Positions 818 to 58,230 of a stretch of DNA of 64,000 nucleotides are shown in pieces; within the stretch, counting starts at the first letter, position 1, and each line of letters opens with the position of its first letter. The position numbers were made by a program, and so were the translations under genes. The stretch is taken from assembly GCF_041146795.1 (NCBI RefSeq), contig NC_135175.1:34248669-34312668 (forward strand), read 5' to 3'. This DNA is from Maylandia zebra (lineage: Eukaryota; Chordata; Actinopteri; Cichliformes; Cichlidae). The notes beneath the pieces are model-generated. The model was not told the origin of the DNA. It worked only from the letters and a program-made list of their open reading frames with translations, and did not search any database.

Positions 818-1980
818 ATGGGAAACTTTTTCAGCAAATGGCAAGACGGAAGCAACGAGACTAAAGACAGACAACCGGCGGCAGACAATATGAGGTAAAG
901 CTAAAAGTCGAGCACTTTTGATTTAGCTTTAGCATGTAAATCAAGTCTCTTTTCATGGGGTACATATATGCAATGAAATATTTTGCAAATGTAGCTCATA
1001 GAGATACTCTGAAATGTTTGCATATTATTATGATTATAACTTTTTATGACACAACAACCAGCTTCCTGATGAAGTGCGTGGGATTACAATGTATAACAAG
1101 ACCACACACTGATGAGGCAAAGACAGGTAAACCACTATCTCTTTGAACTGCTATATAAAGCACATACTAGTGGGTTTTTCAGTCAAGCAGCATTGTTCAT
1201 ATGATTTCTGAAGCAAAGAGTACTTGAAAAATAATGCAATAAAGATTCACTAATGGTAACCACATTCTTTTGTGTTTTAATAGTACTGTACAAGACTCAA
1301 TCTTAAATTATTTCATTCACTTTTAATTTATTCTTTTTTTAATGTAGCATAATAAGTTTTCACTTACATTACTATTGGTATACATCTATGCAGGACGACA
1401 CACTGGCACCACAGTGAACCTTGTTCTTTTGGGAATGGCTGGGACTGGAAAGAGTGCCAGTGGGAACACCATCCTTGGACAGAAACACTTTGTTTCTAGA
1501 CCCAGTTCAACGGCGGTCACCACAATTTGCCAGAATGTACAAACTGAGATCAGTGGTGTAGACGTAAATGTGATTGATACCCCAGATATGTTTGATGATG
1601 ACATTGCTCCATCAGTTAGGGGCAAACATGTGAAAAGGTGCAAACAACTCTGTGAATCAGGACCATGTGTGTATGTACTTGTGATGCATGTGAGCAGATT
1701 TACAGATGATGAGAGAGACATCATGGAAAAGTTAGAAAAAGCTTTTGGGAGGGAAGTTAGAGGACGAACAATCATCCTGTTCACCCGAGGAAACGACTTG
1801 CAGCAGGCGGGAATGGGCTTGGAGGATTTTCTTCATTCTTGCCAACCTGATCTGAAGAAAATGGTTGAAAAGTGTGGAAACAGGTGTGTTCTCTTTGAGA
1901 ACAACAAATCAGGTCCTGATCAGGTTGAAAAACTAATGAAGGTGGTAAACACAATACTCAAAGACCAGAATAATGTATAA
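818..1980 (+). CDS. GIMAP-family GTPase, gene B (three exons)
   Basis: Proposed exons 818-894, 1062-1126 and 1394-1980. Phases agree (77, 65 and 587 nt; 242 residues). The last exon carries the AIG1 domain: P-loop GMAGTGKS near residues 61-68, DTPD at G3, TRGND at G4, and a HSCQPDLKKM segment near the C-terminus. Exon 3 has exactly the length of the matching exon of gene E, and the exon 2 donor is followed by gtaaaccac as in gene E. The middle exon is the least certain part. The N-terminus reads MGNFFSK, a good N-myristoylation pattern. The codons before this ATG are homologous to the end of gene E's exon 2, so the start seems to have arisen from an internal Met. A poly(A) signal AATAAA lies at about 2220. 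The gene diverges from gene A. Confidence 0.75.
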
Positions 1981-30702: not shown

Positions 30703-32428
30703 ATGTCTTCTAGTGGGTGAAAATATTCTGTAAATAGAATTTTTAGTTGTTTTGCTGAAATTAAAAGAACTGCATAGCAAATGGGAAAATGAACCATGTG
30801 ACTTATTGTTTTCACAGAAAGGAAGATTGTAGTTGTTATCCTGGGAAGAGATGAAGTCTTGAAGAAAGCTCTAATAACCAACATCCTGGGAAAAGATTTA
30901 TCCAAACTAGATAAAAGACAAGCTTTGAAAAAGATTGAGATCTATGTAAATGATATATATGAAGTCATGTTTACGCCAGACTTGTATGCAGAATTTAAGG
31001 ACATACAAGACTTGTTGTGTATTAATCGATATCCTGACATGTGTCTGCTGGTGGTAGAACATGGCTTTTCACCAGACGATGTTCGGAAGCAGATAGAACA
31101 TCTGAGCAATAAGACTGAAAAACCTGCAGAAGAGTTTATGGTTTTGCTTCCACTGAGTTATAAACCCACAGATTACTCGTTCATATCCTGCACCATGGAA
31201 CAGGTTTTCAGTGAGCTCGACAGACTGGCTGAAGGCAGAAATCTGATGCTAACTAAAACAAAGTAAGGATGAAAAATAACATAATGCTTTATGGTATTTT
31301 TTCATGTATTTGTGGGGGAAGGTTGCTATGCTACTAAAACACAGGTATTAAGGCTTAATTTGAACATTAGGTCCACAGGTAATCCTGTTGTGGCGAAGGC
31401 GTGTTCCCGGGCTCAGCTGCAGGGGAGGGTGGTGCAGTGCACTCAAGGGACAGTGTTGGTTGGAGGATCAGGTGGACATGATTGAACTAATGAGGTTTCA
31501 CCCTTTTTATAGTGAGATCAGAGATCAGAGACGGGAGAGTGCGCAGACAGCTGGAAAGCCAGCGGATGTGTGTGCCGAACCAGGAAAACAGCCTATAAGT
31601 GAAAAATCAATCAAAACCATTAAACAACCACAGGAACAGAGTGTCGGGTCACGGCCCTTTGTACCTCTTCCACGTTTGTCAGCACCACGCACTGTGATGG
31701 CAATGCCAGGTAAACCACAATCTATACAGTGTCTTTCAGACTTGTTCAGACTGATATCAGTTGGAAGTTCATTATTCAAAACTATGTCGATGTTTCTGAA
31801 ATTCATTACAGGAATCAAAACAACACAACACTTCCATACAGGAAAGCGTACCAGCAACAAAGTGAACCTTGTTCTCCTGGGAATGTCTGGGACTGGAAAG
31901 AGTGCGAGTGGAAACACCATCCTTGGAAAGCCAGTCTTCTTCTCTAGACCCAGTTCACAGCCCGTCACCAAAGATTGTGAGATAGCAGAAACAGAGATAA
32001 ATGGCAAACATGTGCGTGTGATAGATACTCCAGACATGTTTGATGATGACATTGAAGAACCAGTTAAGAACAAATATCTAAAACAGTGCAAAGAGCTCTG
32101 TGAGTCACACCCTTGTGTGTATGTACTTGTGATGCATATAAGCAGATTTACAGATGGTGAGAGAAATATACTGAAAAAACTGGAAAAAGCTTTTGGGAGG
32201 AATGTTAAAGAACAAACTATCATCCTGTTCACTAAATCAGATGATTTGCATCGTTCTGGAAAAACGCTGACTGATTTTCTGCATAGTTGCCAACCTGATC
32301 TGAAGGAAATGATTCAACAGTTGGGCAACAGGTGTGTTCTCTTTGAGAATAACAGATCAGGTTCAGCTCAGGTGGAAAAGCTGCTGGACACAGTGATCAT
32401 GGTTTTAGAAAAACAGCAGAAGTTATAA
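30703..32428 (+). CDS. GIMAP-family gene E: dead N-terminal AIG1-like domain plus active-type AIG1 domain
   Basis: Proposed exons 30703-30712, 30818-31262, 31513-31709 and 31842-32428 give 412 residues with all phases agreeing. Residues about 4-151 fold like AIG1 (IVVVILGRDEVLKKALITNI), but the P-loop positions of GKTGVGKS read GRDEVLKK, so nucleotide binding should be lost. After a linker rich in K, P and Q, the last exon encodes a full AIG1 domain: GMSGTGKSASGNTILG, DTPD, FTKSDDL and HSCQPDLKEM. The last exon has the same length as in gene B (587 nt). The tiny first exon is the weakest call. A pseudo-GTPase beside a normal one suggests internal regulation or dimer formation (inference). A poly(A) signal AATAAA lies near 32725. 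Confidence 0.75.
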
Positions 32429-46112: not shown

Positions 46113-47135
46113 TCAATACTTTGTAACATAACCTTTGTTGGCAATAACAGAGGTCAAACGTTTACTATAGGTCTTTACCAGGTTTGCACACACAGTAGCT
46201 GGTATTTTGGCCCATTCCTCCATGCAGATCTTCTCGAGAGCAGTGATGTTTTGGGGCTGTCGCCGAGCAACACGGACTTTCAACTCCCGCCACAGATTTT
46301 CTATGGGGTTGAGGTCTGGAGACTGGGTAGGCCACTCCAGGACTTTCAAATGCTTCTCACGGAGCCACTCCTTTGTTGCCCGGGCGGTGTGTTTTGGATC
46401 ATTGTCATGTTGGAAGACCCAGCCTCGTTTCATCTTCAAAGTTCTCACTGATGGAAGGAGGTTTTGGCTCAAAATCTCACGATACATGGCCCCATTCATT
46501 CTGTCCTTAACACGGATCAGTCGTCCTGTCCCCTTGGCAGAAAAACAGCCCCATAGCATGATGTTTCCACCCCCATGCTTCACAGTAGGTATGGTGTTCT
46601 TGGGATGCAACTCAGTATTCTTCTTCCTCCAAACACGACGAGTTGAGTTTATACCAAAAAGTTCTACTTTGGTTTCATCTGACCACATGACATTCTCCCA
46701 ATCCTCTGCTGTATCATCCATGTGCTCTCTGGCAAACTTCAGACGGGCCTGGACATGCACTGGCTTCAGCAGCGGAACACGTCTGGCACTGCGGGATTTG
46801 ATTCCCTGCCGTTGTAGTGTGTTACTGATGGTGACCTTTGTTACTTTGGTCCCAGCTCTCTGCAGGTCATTCACCAGGTCCCCCCGTGTGGTTCTGGGAT
46901 CTTTGCTCACCGTTCTCATGATCATTTTGACCCCACGGGATGAGATCTTGCGTGGAGCCCCAGATCGAGGGAGATTATCAGTGGTCTTGTATGTCTTCCA
47001 TTTTCTGATGATTGCTCCCACAGTTGATTTTTTCACACCAAGCTGCTTGCCTATTGTAGATTCACTCTTCCCAGTCTGGTGCAGGTCTACAATACTTTTC
47101 CTGGTGTCCTTCGAGAGCTCTTTGGTCTTGGCCAT
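46113..47135 (-). CDS. Tc1 transposase (340 aa, intact)
   Basis: Open frame of 340 residues. N-terminal paired helix-turn-helix regions (residues about 1-120: [20 protein letters not shown] and [20 protein letters not shown]). DDE domain with [12 protein letters not shown] (D153), [11 protein letters not shown] (D244) and [11 protein letters not shown] (E279). The spacing of 34 residues between D244 and E279 is the DD34E signature of Tc1. A KRRVWR-like NLS region ([10 protein letters not shown]) is present. No defect is seen. The protein performs cut-and-paste transposition at TA. The pogo insert leaves it untouched. Confidence 0.93.
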
Positions 47136-47309
47136 GGCGGAGTTTGGAGTCTGACTGTTTGAGGCTGTGGACAGGTGTCTTTTATACAGATGATGAGTTC
47201 AAACAGGTGCCATTCATACAGGTAACGAGTGGGGGACAGAAAAGCATCTTACAGAAGACGTTACAGGTCTGTGAGAGCCAGAGATTTTCCTTGTTTGAGG
47301 TGACCAAAT

Positions 47310-48810
47310 ACCGTATTTTCACGACCATAAGGCGCACTTAAAAGTCTTAGATTTTCTTCAAAAAGTACGGCGCGCCCTATAGCGCAGTGCGCCCTGTGTG
47401 TTGTAAGGAGGACGTAGTAGAGAACACCATGAGAACGCTAAAGGGTGAAGTGTGGGCGCAACCCTGAAAATGGCAACGAGACACGCTTATGAAGCACAGT
47501 TTAAACGAGGTGGCCCGAGTTGGAGGAAAGACTCGAGCGGTGGATCATCGAGCAAAGAACGAGCGGGAGAAGCGTTTCGACGGTCACCATTCGGCTAAAA
47601 GCAGTTTCACTTTCACTTTTTATGAAACGGTGCCATTTTTCCATCCGGACCAGGACTACGGTAGCGCAGCAACTTCCAGCGGATTATAAGGAAAAGCTGG
47701 CCATCTTCCGCTCCTACTGCAGCAAACACATCGGCGACAAAAACATCCAGCCCAGCCACATCACAAACATGGACGAGGTCCCGCTCACTTTTGACATCCC
47801 GGTGAGTCACACTGTGGAGAAGAAGGGGACCAGCACGGTAGCGATACGCACAACAGGGCACGAAAAGTCTTCTTTTACTGTTGTGCTTGACTGCCATGCT
47901 AATGGACAGAAACTGCCGCCTATGGTGATTTTTAAGAGAAAGACTTTGCCTAAAGAGAAGTTTCCAGCAGGAATCATCATTAAGGCAAATGAAAAGGGCT
48001 GGATGGATGAGGAAATGATGAAAAAGTGGCTGAGGGAGGTGTATGTAAGGAGACCAGGTGGTTTTTTCCACGCATCACCATCGCTCTTAATCTGTGACTC
48101 TATGCGTGCCCATCTCACAGCCGATGTGAAAAAACTAATGAAACAAAGGAACTGTGAGCTTGCTGTCATTCCGGGAGGCCTGACAAAGGAACTCCAGCCG
48201 CTGGACATCGGTGTGAACCGCCTGTTCAAAGTAAGGCTGCGAGCGGCCTGGGAGCGATGGATGACCGATGGAGACCACAGTTTCACCAAGAGTGGAAGGC
48301 AGCGCCGGGCGAGTTACGCCACAATTTGCCAATGGATTGTAGATGCTTGGGCTAACATGTCTGCTGGCACTGTTGTTCGAGCTTTCGCAAAAGCCGGCAT
48401 CATTTCCGAGGAGCCGCACGGCACGGAAAGTGACTCTGACAGTGAAGAAAGTGAACCTGGCATGTTTGATGGAGATTTAGCGCAGCTGTTCAATTCAGAC
48501 ACAGCGGATGAGGACTTCGATGGGTTTGATTGATGATAAAAACGTGAGTACCAAACTTTGTTTTGCTCCTGCTTTATTGTTAAATATGCACACTTGTATG
48601 CTTGTGTGTTGTTGATGATGACGATTACTGGTAATAAAAATGTGAGTACCGAACTCAGGTTTGCTCCCACTTTATTTTTAAATACGCATACGGTACTTGT
48701 ATGCGCCCTATGGTCCAGTGCGCCTTATGTGTGTGTTAAATACAGTAAGGGCACACATAACTGAGACTGCGCCTTTTAGCACAGTGCGCCTTATGGTCGT
48801 GAAAATACGG
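47310..48810 (+). mobile_element. pogo-like transposon nested in the Tc1 repeat
   Basis: Ends CCGTATTTTCACGACCATAA are inverted and perfect over about 27 bp, flanked by TA (47308-47309 and 48811-48812). Removing it restores the Tc1 repeat text CCAAATACTTATTTT. It is 1,501 bp with one transposase gene on plus. Confidence 0.88.
47470..48533 (+). pseudogene. pogo/Tigger-like transposase, N-terminus damaged
   Basis: ATG near 47470 begins MATRHAYEAQFKR, but an internal loss and shift removes most of the helix-turn-helix. The main frame 47520-48533 (337 codons) picks up at EERLERWIIEQRTSGRSVST. Its DDE domain has NMDEVPLTFD, LLICDSMRAHLT and LQPLDIGVNRLFK, the D-D-D triad of pogo transposases. The tail is acidic (SDSDSEESEPG). 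The catalytic part is intact but DNA binding is probably lost. Confidence 0.8.
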
Positions 48811-50863: not shown

Positions 50864-51041
50864 TCCCAACATTTAAAGCATCAAAATGTTTTAGGTAACA
50901 GTAAAGTGCTACTGTGTGGTTTTACCTCTTGAAAGACATGAACAGCTTTCCAAAAATCTGTCATTATGACAGCAGTTTCCTAGCACTGAGAATGATTAAG
51001 GACAGTGACTGTTAGGAAGATCACTTCCATGTGCCACCTCT

Positions 51042-54000
51042 TCATTCTGTTTCAATCCCTAAATGTTTACAGAGAAACGGGTCCTCCTCACGCAGAAACT
51101 TAGTCATCTGTAACCAGGCAGCTTCACCTTTATTGTATACAGTGTCAAAAACACAACGAGCTCTCTCACTTTTGTTATGCTTTGTGTCTGCTTCCTCCCT
51201 CTCAGCAGCAGTTATCACCTTTTTCTCCAGCAGTTTGTCCAGCAGACTGCTGAGAACAGGTCCTGATATACTTTGGATGAAGCGGCTCCGTAGAGCTGAT
51301 GATATCTTCTTTGAACCAGTGTCCAAAATTCTCACAGTATCAGTTTCCCCTCCAACATGAGGACCTGGAAAGGAGGCTTCAACACATCGCTCATATTCTC
51401 TTTTGAGGAAATCATCTGTTTTTGCAGTGTCCAGGATCCCTTGTGTTTCTACAACACTAACTACTTTGTTACCCCACTGAGTCATGTGTTTTTCACAAAA
51501 CTCAGTTGCAGATTCAGTAAAGGCACATCTGAATTTTCTGTCTCCCAGGATGGTGTTTCCAACAACACTCTTACCCACACCAGTTTTTCCATTCATCACA
51601 ATCCTCAAATCAGGACCTGAAATGCATTTCACAAATTAAATTTAACCCATATACACAAGGGTGTAATAAGAGTGCCAGTGAAACTGAGAAGTTCTCAAAG
51701 CTACACTCTTAAAAATGCTGGGTTATTTTCATAACTCAACTGCTGGGTAAAAGCCGTAGGTTCGTAAGTTGGGTTATTGTGACCAAATTTTGGTTCAGAA
51801 ATCATGACTCAGGAGTTGGGTTGGTTGTGCCGGGTTCTTTAATTCACTCCACAGCTTGACTAATTCTGTTGGGTCATAGGTTGGGCAGCTTTGATAAAAT
51901 ATTACACAATTGTTTGGGTAGAAGATAAGCTTCAGGTTGAAGATAAGCTTCAGAAGAAGCCACATCATTCTTCACAAACTGCCATTTTCAACTAGACTGT
52001 GACCTGATCAGATATCACTGGACTTCTCCACTACTATGAAATAAAAACAAAGAAAGTATGAGATTGGGTGTTGCATTTGTGGGAAAAAGGTAAAAAAAAA
52101 AAGAAAAAGCAGCACAGTCTATCTAAACAATTTAATTTAATTCAATTATTTAATTTAACCTAAATGACCTCTATGTTGATAACAACATCTTTTTATTTTA
52201 TAATTTAAAGAAAATGATAATTTGTCCCATTTAGATTTTTTAAGGATAGATTGCGCTAATACTTCGATCCCCTTTTTTCCTCGTTCACTAGACCGCGCAA
52301 AGGGCACACGCATCCCTGCGTTTAGCTTGCTTGCTTCTAATGAAAACGTGATGGCAACATACGCAAGTATTTATACTGCCACCACACATATTTAGCCACC
52401 ATCTTCGATCCTCACTCTGAGACCTCGGCAGCTTTACTTGTAATCAAAGTAATTTACTTGTAATCAAAGTAAAAATTAAAAAATAATAATAATAATAATT
52501 TACTGACTTCTAAATATCGTTTGTATTAAGCCTTTTGATTCTTAGTCTATACACAAGGCTAAATTGTTGAAGGGTTAACCTGGCAGTGCTGCGAATGTTG
52601 GCTGCATTCAGACCCTGCTCAGTGTACAGTTAATCTGCTCTTCACTTAGATAGAGGCAGTGCTAGCTACTCTATGACACTGGGTGAAAGCAGCCTGTCAT
52701 TACTTCACAGACGAAAGTCACCGACTTAATTGTCTGAAGGATCGGTCCAGGGTACAAAAGCTGTGCAATCACACTTTCTTATATATTATTTGTAACTTAT
52801 ATCTATGTACATTCACTTGAATGAAAATTAAAAATGAGAAATGCTATCCTTGCTAACTTTTGAGTATTGTGACGGTTCGGTCCATAGCAGTGAAGGAACG
52901 TCGGGCACTGGTTAAAGTGCAAAAAAAAGTTTTTTATTTGACCCTAAAACAAAGTTGGTTAAATTATACAGAGAATTCAAAATCTTGGCCCATAAAAGAG
53001 TTCAAAGTAACAGAACTCTTCTCAAAAGTTGGCAACAAATAATACTGCTAACTCAAACAAACTAACCTAACTAAACAAGACAAAGAGGAAACTTAAACAA
53101 TGACTGATCAGCTAACAAAAAACACAGAAAGGCGTAGAACACACAAAACCCAACTAAAACTAATATAACAAATTCAATCATCCCTCCCCTCCCCCCATGC
53201 TTCAGAATTGTGGTATGACCCAATTTGCAGGTCTCCACATAGGCTTGCTCCGCCCCTTTTCCACCTTTTTGCTCATCAACCAAGGGACTGGGAGCAGCTG
53301 CAACTGAGGTAACTCAGAAAACAAAGAAAGATTAAATCATACATACATAACAGTGGAAACTAAAATGTGTGCACTTATTTTAGAATACAGTATTATGTGA
53401 TTGTATAAGTAAATTAATTTTTAACCAAAACCAGTTCTTTATTACCCTGTAAATTAAATCCTATATTTAAGGAAAGAAAAATTTAAGTGTAGTGTTATGT
53501 GTAAGCCTGTATTGTAACACTGATGTTTGGTAGATATTACCACTGTGTGGCTGTAACTGCAGCCATAACAAGTAGATTCAGTTATTCTAAAATTAATATA
53601 AAAATGTTTTAACTTTAATTCTTTAACTGTAGAACATCCGTGAGGTTCACCTGAGGGGGATATTAGTGATGTGACGTTCTGTATCGAGGCTTCGAAGCTT
53701 GTGTCGAGTAATGGAGGGGGCGTTTCCGCGATGCGCGTATCGAGGCTTGCTTCATTTATGGGAGGAGCTGAAAATGATGACGTCCGAAGCCTCGCTGCCC
53801 GGCTGTACCACGTGACTGGTTCATGAAGTAGTTCGAACTTCGCCGCGAGCTATGACAGCGATATAAACCCCTCAGACTTCATTCAAAATGTGGGTGTTTG
53901 ATGGAGAGTTGCGGTTAGTGAGAGTTTGGAGACAGTTTGGAGGTTTATGAGAGTGAGGAGAGAAAGTCAGGAGAGAATGGAGCCAGCTAAGAAGAGGAGG

Positions 54001-55229
54001 ATGTCCTCCCCTGTGTGGGAACATTTTGATTTTATTCCTCCCAACAAGGTATGTAAATTTCTACAGAAGATGTATTTTCATAATACTGATGGTGCAATAC
54101 AATTTATGTTAAGCTGTCTGTACTTTTGTACAAGGTGAAGTGTTTGCTATGTGCCAGGGAGCTGGGATATAACAACAACACCTCATCCATGCTTAGGCAC
54201 TACAGAGCTTTGCATGAGAATAAGGGGAACACCGATTGTGGAGCAAGACCAGGTGAGCCATCAAATGCAATGATAATATAGCATGCAGTAATGTTACTAA
54301 ATGATATAACAATATTATACAACTGTTATAAGTTACGTGTGTGATATTTATACTTGTGCTTTGTCTTTGTCTTTCCTCAGAGAACAATCTCAAATAGATG
54401 AAGACCTGGTTACCATGATGATTGAGGACTCCCAGCCATTTAGCATTGTGGAGGACAAAGGATTCAAAAGATTTGTTAAATCATTAAATCCTACCTATGT
54501 TCTCCCCACTAAAAAGGTCATAAAAGCAGTGAAAATTTAGTTTTTACTGAATAAAATGTGAACAGGCAGGACTGAGGCCTCAGTGTGTAGCTGTCCATAC
54601 CTCAACGTTACAAAAGCACAACCACTGTCCACACCCCAACCACACCTCACCTCACAGTAAATGATCGTTTCCATTTTAAGCATTTCCAAATAATCATTTT
54701 CCATACTGCCAGTATAAATATACACAGTATACTGCCATCACTACAATATACATGTTTTACACACTCCTTTTGTTGTTGACATTTACAGGCTGTGTGCAAA
54801 AGGCCACACTCTTCAAATTCATGCCAACTAATATTTTTACGTCCAGTAGGTGTCCTGCTAGAGCAAATGAAGCTTCAAGAAGCTTTGCACTGGAGTGAAC
54901 CAATTGGATGAAAAGCTTCAGTGCTTCATGAAGCTTCATCTGCCCATCACTAGGGGATATCTTTGGCTGCCAGTCTTGAAGAACACCAGCACATACCTGA
55001 GTGTAAAAAAAACGTATTTTCCGGCGATGTTTGCTACCCTACAATCCGTTCTACACTGTAGTAAAATCAGTGACATTTGACCGTCCTGTTGCTCCCATTG
55101 AAATGTATACAGCCTATTTAAAACCTGAAACTTAAAATTGTCCGTAGCCTGCTGTTGTCACCACTGTCCTGTTTTAAATGGATACTAACTAGCTAACTGA
55201 CTGAATGCCCATTAAACTTATAACTCCTG

Positions 55230-55298
<69 letters not shown>

Positions 55299-57253
55299 AT
55301 TTTCACTGTGGCTACATTTGGGCTTCTTGGTCAGAACGTCAGGGACACTGTGCTGTGCTGGCCAAGGTAAAATGACTCCAGTGGCAGCTCCCACAGTGTG
55401 TGCGCTGGGGGGATGTAAACAAAGAGGATCAGTCAAAACGTTTGATTTCTTTTATTTTTCCAAAGCTTCTGCTCTTTGTATTTGTTTATTTTACAAGAAA
55501 TCTACAGAAAAGTAAATTATTTGTAAAATCAAATCTTTTTAAATGCAACTGGTTTTTCTTGCAGCCTAACTTAAGGAATAAAGGCAATTTTGTCATCATC
55601 AATAGTGGATCAATTTAAAGGACTGCCATGGCACAGAATATGTAAGTATCTACACTTCAACAGATACACACAACAACAATTAAAAAACCTGAATACTGGT
55701 CAGTTTTTCAGTCAGTATACTGAGTGTCATTGTGATTATAAAAATAAATATACAGTTTGTATTTACTCAATTTCCATATCTTTAAAAAATGTATGCACAT
55801 TATATGTCACACATTTAAGTTATATCTTCAGTCATATGCACATTATAGATGCATAAATAATAACATTTGTTTAAATCTATTGCGAAGTTGGCAAAAAGGT
55901 TTGTACAACCTTGTGACAATATAAAGTGTGTGAAACATGATACTTGATCTTGGCTTAGTCCATCTCCTAACAATTAATTGCAAGCATTCACAACCAAAGA
56001 CTGGTCTGCTTCATTGTTGTTTTATCCTCTCTGAGCAAATGTCAAGCATAGAGTTGGAGCTCACCGCTCCAGGATTACAGACAACTTGACATTAACCAAA
56101 CAACTGCAAATAATGTTTTAAATCTTACTTTACTGACCCCTTTCTTTTGTTTAAAAATTTCAGGATGTGTGGTTTAGCCCTTGCAGAACTGATAGGCCAG
56201 CAACTGGATTTCTGAAGTGGTGTATATGTAATGTCAGAAAAACCTTTCATTCTATCAGGAAGAAGAATTCAGCACCAAAGGACCCCCAAGAAAATGTTCA
56301 TCTTGCCTGGTACTAGAAGATAGATTTGTTTCTGCTTTTTGCACCAATCTAAGGTCTTTTGATGGCTGCTTCAATTTGTTTTTGGTTTTGATGCAAGTTA
56401 CCCAAAGTCATGTGCCCAGGTTCGGGAATTCCTTCACACTGTCATCTATCCCAAGAATAGATGAAGCCCAGCACATGAATCAAATATGATCAAATTAATG
56501 AGGGCTCATTTAGTTATGATGTAAGCATAAAATGCATGAAATGATCTGAGAGGGAGATTCCCTCTTGCCACTTTTCCAAAGAGTAAGATGTATGTCCAAA
56601 GATGTATGTATTAGGTACTGAAAAACATCATCAATTCATCAGTTTTTTAAAGTTAAGAGTTTTTACATGTAATTTGTTCTAAAATAGAGCCGGCTTTACA
56701 TAACATACTTTACACATGTCTTCATGTGTATTAACATGTACATGTGCTGTAACCAAAGACTGATGTGAAGTAATGGATATAATATAATGAATTATATACT
56801 TTTTAAACTTGCGTTTTACTTTCATTTATATAATTTTTATGAATTTGACTTTCTATGTTCTATGTATCATATGGCAATAAAACAATTTTTTTAAGAAAAG
56901 ATGTTTTGAATCTAGTTTTTATAATCTGAATTTTATAATAAGTAGAAATCTTAACCCAAACATTAATGGTAATATAACCCATGTGATGGGTTCTGACTTT
57001 TGACCCAATTTTTTGGTAACCTCAACTTCAAACATTGGTCAATTTAACCCAATTTTTGGAAAGTTATCCCAACCCAGTGTGCTGGGTCAAACCAGTAACT
57101 CTGTTAAGCTGAAACAACCCAGAGTTGGCTCGGTCCATATTTGACCCAGCGTTGGGTTACTGATTGGGACATTTATAACCCAGCATTTCTAAGTGTGTAA
57201 CAAACCATACAGAGAAATTAACTTTAAGTCTTACCTGGTTGAAATGAAGCCAT
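51042..57253 (-). CDS. GIMAP-CARD fusion, gene C (truncated AIG1 domain plus CARD)
   Basis: Exons 57253-57235 and 51616-51042 give 197 residues with matching phase, using the same 7-codon first exon as A and D. Residues 1-94 are the first half of an AIG1 domain: P-loop GKTGVGKS at 16-23, but G3 is ETQG (63-66) instead of DTPG, and the region from G4 on is absent. Right after FPGPHV comes GGETDTVRILDTGSKKISSA and a CARD: SRFIQSISGPVLSSLLDKLL, ITAAEREEAD, KGEAAWLQMTKFL. CARDs recruit inflammasome partners such as ASC or caspase-1-like proteins. The junction lies inside one open exon, so it is a genomic fusion. The intron is 5.6 kb because of an inserted element. GTP hydrolysis is unlikely. Confidence 0.8.
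53664..54952 (+). mobile_element. Internally deleted hAT transposon with perfect 8-bp duplication
   Basis: Ends TAGTGATG...CATCACTA are inverted, flanked by GGGGATAT at 53656-53663 and 54953-54960. It is 1,289 bp and encodes only the start of a transposase. It is nested in the TA-flanked element of gene C's intron. Confidence 0.88.
53977..54540 (+). pseudogene. BED zinc-finger start of a hAT transposase
   Basis: Exons 53977-54048, 54135-54252 and about 54384-54540, with agreeing phases. Residues 1-24 read MEPAKKRRMSSPVWEHFDFI. The BED finger has CLLCAREL and LRHYRALH (C-x2-C...H-x4-H). The third exon has QIDEDLVTMMIEDSQPFSIV and stops at KAVKI. The catalytic core is deleted. What is left could still bind DNA (inference). 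Confidence 0.7.
55229..55297. repeat. (TG)n microsatellite
   Basis: About 34 uninterrupted TG units in the gene C intron. Confidence 0.97.
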
Positions 57254-57323
57254 CTTAATGTCACTGTTGCCACTGCTCAGGTGAGAGAGATGAATGTTAA
57301 AGCCTCTGTTCAACACATGGCTT

Positions 57324-57356
57324 ATTTATAGCTCCACAGAAGACACGTCTCCTCCT
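57324..57356 (-). promoter_or_regulatory. GIMAP core promoter of gene C
   Basis: The minus strand reads GGAGGAGACGTGTC, a short spacer, then GAGCTATAAATAAG, about 70 bases before the gene C start codon. It matches genes A and D, with a small insertion in the upstream box. No octamer is seen. Confidence 0.6.
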
Positions 57357-57555
57357 GTATTTGACAGAGAAAGAGGGCAGCACAGCCTTAAGACACCACA
57401 CAGAGTTTTCCTGCACCTGACTGAAGAGCCACCACTTACAGGGAGTTTTGCTTGTAAACCTTTCTTTGCTTTGTAACATTAAAATAAAAACACAGTTAAT
57501 GAAGGCTTTAACATATTCAGATAAAGTAAAGAAAGAAAAAATTTTTTGATTTCAT

Positions 57556-58230
57556 TTCCCCCTCCAGTGGGCAACAGTTTAATCTCTTTTTCCCATACAC
57601 AGCTGGAGCTGTTCTTGTCTGTCAGACTCAGGTTAATATTTGTAATGACTTTTGTTTAAGACTATCTGAAATGATGGAAAGTAGCTTTCATGGTGCTCCT
57701 CTTCAAAATCAGCTTCTATTGGTTGACAGAACAGGTCATGTTCAAGATCCGTGAATGGAGTGTAAACATCCTTTGGATGCAGTTTACAGTGAGAGGACGT
57801 CTATTTATCTCTCAGTTTTTTCTGACTTCCTCCTGTCACGCAGAGTTTTGCAGAACAAAATAGTTCACGGCAGCATGAAAACACTGAGAACAGATCTAAC
57901 ATCAGCATCTGGGGGTTTGTAGAAGAGCAGAATCAATGTTTAGATTGGGTCGCAGGGAGAGTCTTCATCCTTGACATTATCATAACCAGAAAACCCTGTG
58001 ATGTTTATAACAACATGAGTTTCTGTTATCTGGTGAGGGGGGGAAAACTTGACGGCGTCTCCTTCTCCCTTCATGACAAACAGCAGGCCTGTCACACTGC
58101 ACTGGTACAGCCCTGCACAGGAGCACTGGAACAGGTAGGTTTCATCATCAAAATTATCAGCACTGATGATAGGTGTAAACTCTTTTAACCTCATGTCAGG
58201 TAAGCTTGCTGCTCGTGTAAATCCTTCCAC
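57556..58230 (-). pseudogene. FIIND (ZU5-UPA) domain relic
   Basis: The frame 58230-57940 encodes EFTPIISADNFDDETYLFQC, CSCAGLYQCSVTGLLFVM and HQITETHVVINITGFSGY, the ZU5 half of FIIND. A deletion after GEGDAV removes the segment that normally holds the self-cleavage site. Past a stop at 57940, shifted frames give LILLFYKPPDADVRSVLSVF, HCKLHPKDVYTPF and SSSCVWEKEIKLL, the UPA half, ending near 57556. FIIND precedes CARD in NLRP1- and CARD8-type proteins. Here it lies on the same strand just upstream of the GIMAP-CARD gene and is clearly dead. Confidence 0.75.

Follow-up and report, generated by a model that had tools for sequence, protein, structure and literature searches.

An in-frame fusion of half a GIMAP GTPase domain with a complete CARD in Maylandia zebra, and its probable origin by insertion into an NLRP1/CARD8-like gene

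How does the first half of an immune GTPase come to be read without a stop into a death-fold domain, and is the resulting reading frame a working gene? The question is raised by a GIMAP-CARD fusion on the minus strand (51042 to 57253) of a 64,000-nucleotide stretch of the cichlid Maylandia zebra (contig NC_135175.1, positions 34,248,669 to 34,312,668); this whole stretch is referred to below as the window, and its own numbering is used. As an explanation of origin alone, we are nearly certain that the 5' half of a GIMAP gene was inserted, in frame, between UPA and CARD of a FIIND-UPA-CARD gene. For the fuller proposition, that the chimeric frame was born by this insertion and is now drifting with no selected function, we put the chances at about even.

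The layout of the fusion can be read directly. Its start codon is the ATG at 57253, and the coding part of exon 1 (57235..57253, minus strand; ATGGCTTCATTTCAACCAG) encodes MASFQP plus one further base, ending at 57235 immediately before a GTAAG donor. Exon 2 (51042..51616, minus strand) follows a TTTCAG acceptor, has 51616 as its first base and stays open for 575 bp until a TGA stop at 51044-51042. Both splice sites match the consensus and are intact, and the spliced product is 197 residues long. Two Pfam domains score in this protein: residues 10-94 match AIG1 over profile positions 1-86 of 212, with 67.3 bits against a cut-off of 27, and residues 114-193 match CARD (44.3 bits, curated cut-off 23.9). 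The fusion point between GIMAP and CARD-side sequence lies at 51355/51354. A TATA-like box, TATAAATAA (57322..57330, minus strand), lies in an upstream region that aligns with window 661-392 and 26344-26225, at two GIMAP paralogs. This confirms that half an AIG1 domain is joined to a complete CARD without a break in the reading frame. A preliminary description had proposed a single open frame running from a GIMAP first exon and P-loop into a complete CARD, under a GIMAP-type upstream region; direct reading, the alignments to the two paralogs and the profile scores, both above their curated cut-offs, agree with it. It gave the splice pair 57235/51616 exactly and placed the fusion point at 51354/51353, right to within one base.

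The same description missed what lies upstream. Directly 5' of the GIMAP first exon and on the same strand is a relic of an NLRP1/CARD8-like FIIND domain (57559..58194, minus strand; Pfam FIIND, 50.6 bits; tblastn), which ends at the UPA/CARD linker and carries six lesions: three stops within the frame, two shifts of frame and the loss of about 60 codons from its interior. Residues 1-274 of P0123, a FIIND-CARD protein of Pelmatolapia mariae, match 58194-57560 in three pieces by tblastn; from residue 273 the same protein aligns with the window from 51353, including the pre-CARD peptide GG.TDTVR, and the alignment continues into the bases beyond the fusion's stop codon. The peptide GGETDTVRILDTGSKKISS that precedes the CARD aligns in P0123 with the linker of FIIND-CARD proteins, which rules out a captured intron as its source. 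Just past the CARD, a one-base insertion, seen in alignment with L006 (a FIIND-CARD locus on another contig of the same genome), has moved the stop and put the former C-terminal tail QNEEVAHGSDLPNSHCP out of frame (50999..51058, minus strand; tblastn of P0123 residues 369-388, 95%).

Protein searches point to the same two parents. Among the matches listed, the initial searches yielded GIMAPs, a single fusion (P0002) and a single protein with a CARD (P0122). With the CARD and the relic as queries, nearly all of the best 120 of 139 matches carry both FIIND and CARD; they come from cichlids and other spiny-rayed fishes, and many bear the names NLRP1-like or CARD8-like. Among these 120, P0123 is the best match of the relic (76.7%) and of the CARD (76.3%) alike, and in a 61-row tree the fusion CARD is its sister (Shimodaira-Hasegawa approximate likelihood ratio support 86; 84 with P0126). 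P0123 was nevertheless rejected as an uninterrupted ortholog, as its FIIND is nearest to L003 (90%) and its CARD nearest to the fusion (74%) among the loci compared. Because the FIIND relic lies directly upstream, we conclude that the CARD once belonged to an NLRP1/CARD8-like gene and that the GIMAP half was inserted into that gene.

The boundaries of the insert can be placed almost to the base. The GIMAP-derived segment (51355..57558, minus strand; blastn to the GIMAP loci L010 and L012) includes the upstream region, exon 1, the intron and the first half of exon 2 (88 codons), and measures about 0.7 kb apart from an element with terminal inverted repeats in the intron. Sequence changes from FIIND-type to GIMAP-upstream at 57559/57558, and from GIMAP to FIIND-CARD at 51355/51354; the FIIND-type (L003) and GIMAP-upstream (L010, L012) alignments overlap by seven bases, which leaves room for the left junction to be as much as seven bases further in. 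A copy of TGGAGGGG stands at each end, the first on the FIIND side (57559..57566, minus strand), where these alignments meet, and the second on the CARD side (51347..51354, minus strand). The flanks match at 13 of 15 bases, and an equally good 15-base match arose twice in 2000 random draws; relatives back only part of the duplication, L003 having GGAGGG and L006 TGGAGG at this site.

We then compared the fusion exon (579-bp query) with the rest of the 962-Mb genome, in which the window lies on a 37.9-Mb contig; only the best candidates were scored. The 21 matches were the locus itself, nine GIMAP-type, seven FIIND-CARD-type and four short matches. The junction is sharp, because all nine GIMAP-type matches end at query base 266 and the FIIND-CARD-type matches begin at 267, 268 or 329-334. 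Among these 21 best candidates there is no second copy of the fusion junction; only the locus itself spans it. Some 120-195 kb away from the window, at 34.054-34.129 Mb of the same contig, loci L001-L005 hold FIIND and CARD in common open frames of 448-730 residues, and in L003 FIIND, UPA-FIIND and CARD all score within one frame of 675 residues. A processed retrocopy is ruled out, as the insert contains intron ends and an upstream region. The sequence of events would then be that a GIMAP upstream region, exon 1, short intron and half of exon 2 entered between UPA and CARD; this would have broken a single-frame FIIND-UPA-CARD gene of NLRP1/CARD8 type, whose FIIND half subsequently decayed.

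Could the junction instead be an artefact, in which assembly joined GIMAP and CARD stretches? The locus is repeat-rich and both families are multicopy nearby, and a near match from a second data set suggests that joins may err in such families. This protein, P0002, is identical to the fusion for 120 residues across the GIMAP/CARD junction, after which its residues 121-180 reproduce verbatim the 60-residue CARD tail of L006; at the switch, the fusion and L006 share 25 exact bases, or 38 with one mismatch. Its source carries the tag lgn, which we take to denote a collection assembled from public reads, and its longest contig is 1528 bp. The verbatim L006 tail rules out P0002 as a clean independent ortholog; it is either an assembly chimera or a recombinant allele. 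Through P0002 a second data set backs the junction, but the protein does not represent a second clean gene, and apart from it no annotated counterpart of the fusion appeared among the best 120 of 205 and the best 120 of 139 matches. Given that P0002 repeats the junction, that the window contains no N, and that the relic and the CARD flank the insert in order with 8 bp shared, we consider an artefact at the window itself very improbable. Both families are represented within about 0.26 Mb of this contig, so that exchanges between GIMAP and FIIND-CARD genes could happen repeatedly; P0002 might then be a second form produced by recombination and not a product of faulty assembly.

With the origin of the frame in place, we turn to what its halves could do. 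The AIG1 half (51355..51616, minus strand), which ends in PGPHV, retains the G1 P-loop GxxGxGKS as GKTGVGKS, and this intact motif is the point in favour of the model advanced in the preliminary description, namely a GTP-binding, non-hydrolysing GIMAP module that switches the attached CARD. The altered switch region and the missing G4 and G5 on which that model drew are both present as described. In G3 (DxxG) the usual DTPG has become ETQG, although 95% or more of 119 relatives keep its D and P, and the profile match stops at position 86 of 212, leaving out G4, G5 and the rest of the G-domain. Of the 39 columns with 95% conservation or more in the 119 relatives, seven are lost; the relatives themselves lose at most four, and none of the 119 loses seven. 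The end branch of this half is 0.49 against a median of 0.1, the third-longest of 46 chosen rows in a quick tree. The ratio of nonsynonymous to synonymous substitution rates (dN/dS) is 0.51-0.76 against seven GIMAP loci, compared with 0.25-0.52 in five pairs among those loci, and of its private changes 21 are nonsynonymous and 5 synonymous, compared with 12:13 in two paralogs (Fisher's exact test, P = 0.02; an alternative count using the two window paralogs gives 20:7). AlphaFold (24-row alignment) predicts the half to be unfolded, with block predicted local distance difference test (pLDDT) values of 29-55. On this combination of a cut domain, lost residues, neutral-like substitutions and predicted fold, it is very unlikely that the AIG1 half binds GTP; the GTPase part of the preliminary description is not supported, and the switch model is hardly credible.

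The CARD presents a different picture in its predicted structure. It lies at 51057..51296 (minus strand; Pfam, Foldseek), with six predicted helices at residues 104-186 and block pLDDT values of 94-98 over most of its length, and in a single prediction it is the only part confidently folded. The best solved matches found by Foldseek are the CARDs of ICEBERG, caspase-1 and CARD8, ICEBERG being the best PDB CARD by both sequence and fold. The CARD is thus confidently predicted to fold if made.

Its substitutions speak against constraint. With 28 nonsynonymous and 8 synonymous private changes it looks neutral, as does L003 (9:3), and dN/dS is 0.64-1.28 against six of the seven FIIND-CARD loci, a set from which L005 is left out and in which L007 is broken at its end. 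The CARD has an end branch of 0.32, where the median is 0.091 and its sister P0123 has 0.12 (61 rows, without P0002). An ordinary branch length (0.10, median 0.082) obtained earlier was withdrawn, as that tree held the P0002 CARD, which includes the fusion's own first residues; because of the corrected value we lowered our estimate for a functional reading to somewhat below even and raised that for drift to even. Divergence of the FIIND relic relative to the CARD was uninformative as a test of constraint: in 1201 of 1520 pairs of similar CARD identity, FIIND identity is no higher than that of the relic. Neither half is detectably under selection, and both evolve fast and in a neutral-like manner; for this reason the frame, although open, is most likely a remnant that has survived, in which the GTPase half would no longer work and the CARD would still fold if made.

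Several observations weigh against drift. The fused frame contains no stop or frameshift before its last five residues, beside a FIIND relic with six lesions; decay like that of the relic would give 3.5-5.4 lesions, with a probability of none of 0.005-0.03, and in neutral simulations with 28-56 substitutions the frame stayed open with a probability of 0.0009-0.14, depending on age and indel rate. The splice sites and the TATA-like box are intact. The CARD core is mostly kept: four of 30 columns at 90% conservation or above are changed, and as many or more are changed in 12 of 118 relatives (at 95% conservation, one of 10 columns, as in 20 of 118 relatives). Uninterrupted FIIND-CARD loci are fast as well (15 pairs, dN/dS 0.51-1.32, median 0.68), so the dN/dS of the fusion CARD is compatible with function. 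An open frame beside a decayed FIIND half favours maintenance, provided that the relic and the frame are equally old; the pattern of substitutions argues the opposite, for drift.

These observations, with the confident predicted fold and its ICEBERG, caspase-1 and CARD8 matches, are what a working gene would explain: a CARD freed from FIIND and UPA, placed under a GIMAP promoter and translated as a protein of CARD-only type behind a floppy leader left over from the GTPase. That promoter may still give rise to a spliced message. The most likely mode of such a protein would be to bind CARDs of ASC/caspase-1 type and to cap or dilute UPA-driven CARD filaments as an ICEBERG-like decoy, a weak activator being less likely. 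In NLRP1 and CARD8, according to PMC7794386, the signalling piece is a UPA-CARD fragment in which UPA lowers the threshold for CARD filaments; loss of UPA should accordingly raise it, which would suit a decoy. Against a working gene stand the neutral-like CARD changes, the long CARD branch beside that of P0123, and the finding that, by identity, the FIIND relic is no more diverged than the CARD. We regard it as a possibility somewhat short of even, and drifting chimera and CARD-only modulator are nearly equal because the frame has stayed open next to a FIIND half that carries six lesions. The bolder proposal, that GIMAP insertion freed the CARD from FIIND and UPA in one step and created an expressed, fast-evolving CARD-only inflammasome modulator, is conceivable but unlikely.

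Other features of the locus and its surroundings can be noted. The intron of the fusion measures 5.6 kb, most of it a single 5.5-kb element (51702..57199, no strand assigned) with 25-bp terminal inverted repeats (92%) that begin with TA; without it the intron would be 120 bp, similar to that of the paralog with which the window begins (roughly 130 bp). Elsewhere in the window are an uninterrupted 361-residue frame for a Tc1/Sleeping-Beauty-type transposase with helix-turn-helix (HTH) and DDE domains (46116-47198, minus strand), a 342-residue frame with Tc5-type HTH and DDE_1 transposase domains (47505-48530, plus strand), and two distant AIG1 frames with at most 41% identity to retrieved proteins (31364-32428 and 1348-1980, plus strand). 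Across C9:34.05-34.31 Mb of the same genome, NLRP1/CARD8-like FIIND-CARD genes adjoin GIMAP genes, and near-identical pairs of GIMAP matches (L010/L011, L013/L014 and L018/L019) suggest segmental duplication. About 6 kb past the window end is a 118-residue CARD frame of 55.9 bits (L021:6882-7133; C9:34318881-34319132, minus strand), beside which a FIIND search listed no match other than the relic. Contigs C2 and C33 hold 22 scattered CARD matches with 114-residue frames and similar scores, and C3 one more, which we read as an amplified CARD-bearing family.

The locus shows, nearly to the base, how a CARD can lose its FIIND brake and come under the promoter of another immune gene, and since relatives of both parents are present in the same genome, the birth of a possible inflammasome regulator is directly testable. 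If it proves unexpressed, it would be a clean example of an open frame that mimics a new domain architecture while being a drifting insertion product.

Among known systems, the closest relatives are the two parental families. Cichlid GIMAP (AIG1) GTPases (L010-L014, P0003-P0005) share with the fusion the upstream region, exon 1, splice sites, P-loop and 88 codons, whereas the fusion is without G4, G5 and the remainder of the domain, has an altered G3 and has gained a CARD. Teleost NLRP1/CARD8-like FIIND-CARD proteins (P0123; L003, L006) have a CARD and linker homologous to those of the fusion, and the FIIND half precedes the CARD in them as the relic does at this locus; the fusion itself lacks FIIND and UPA in frame with the CARD, these being broken and separated from it by the GIMAP insert, and its CARD is reached from a GIMAP start codon. 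The preliminary description knew of no GIMAP with a CARD. For vertebrates this stands, in that we recognised no GIMAP/AIG1 and CARD fusion in the open-licence literature; beyond them it does not, as two reports describe AIG1 and CARD in one protein in amphioxus, with the CARD N-terminal (PMC12373286), and in the snail Biomphalaria, with the CARD named before AIG1 (PMC7053062). These non-vertebrate proteins differ from the fusion in that order, and they probably arose independently. Zebrafish Gbp3 and Gbp4, according to PMC4932187, are GTPases with a C-terminal CARD, the GTPase activity of Gbp4 being required; like them, the fusion has immune GTPase sequence N-terminal to a CARD in one chain, but from another GTPase family and as a half domain without G4 and G5. 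Finally, the fusion may resemble CARD-only proteins of the ICEBERG type, in that the CARD is the sole domain that one prediction folds confidently; unlike them, it stems from a FIIND-CARD gene and has a leader of GTPase origin.

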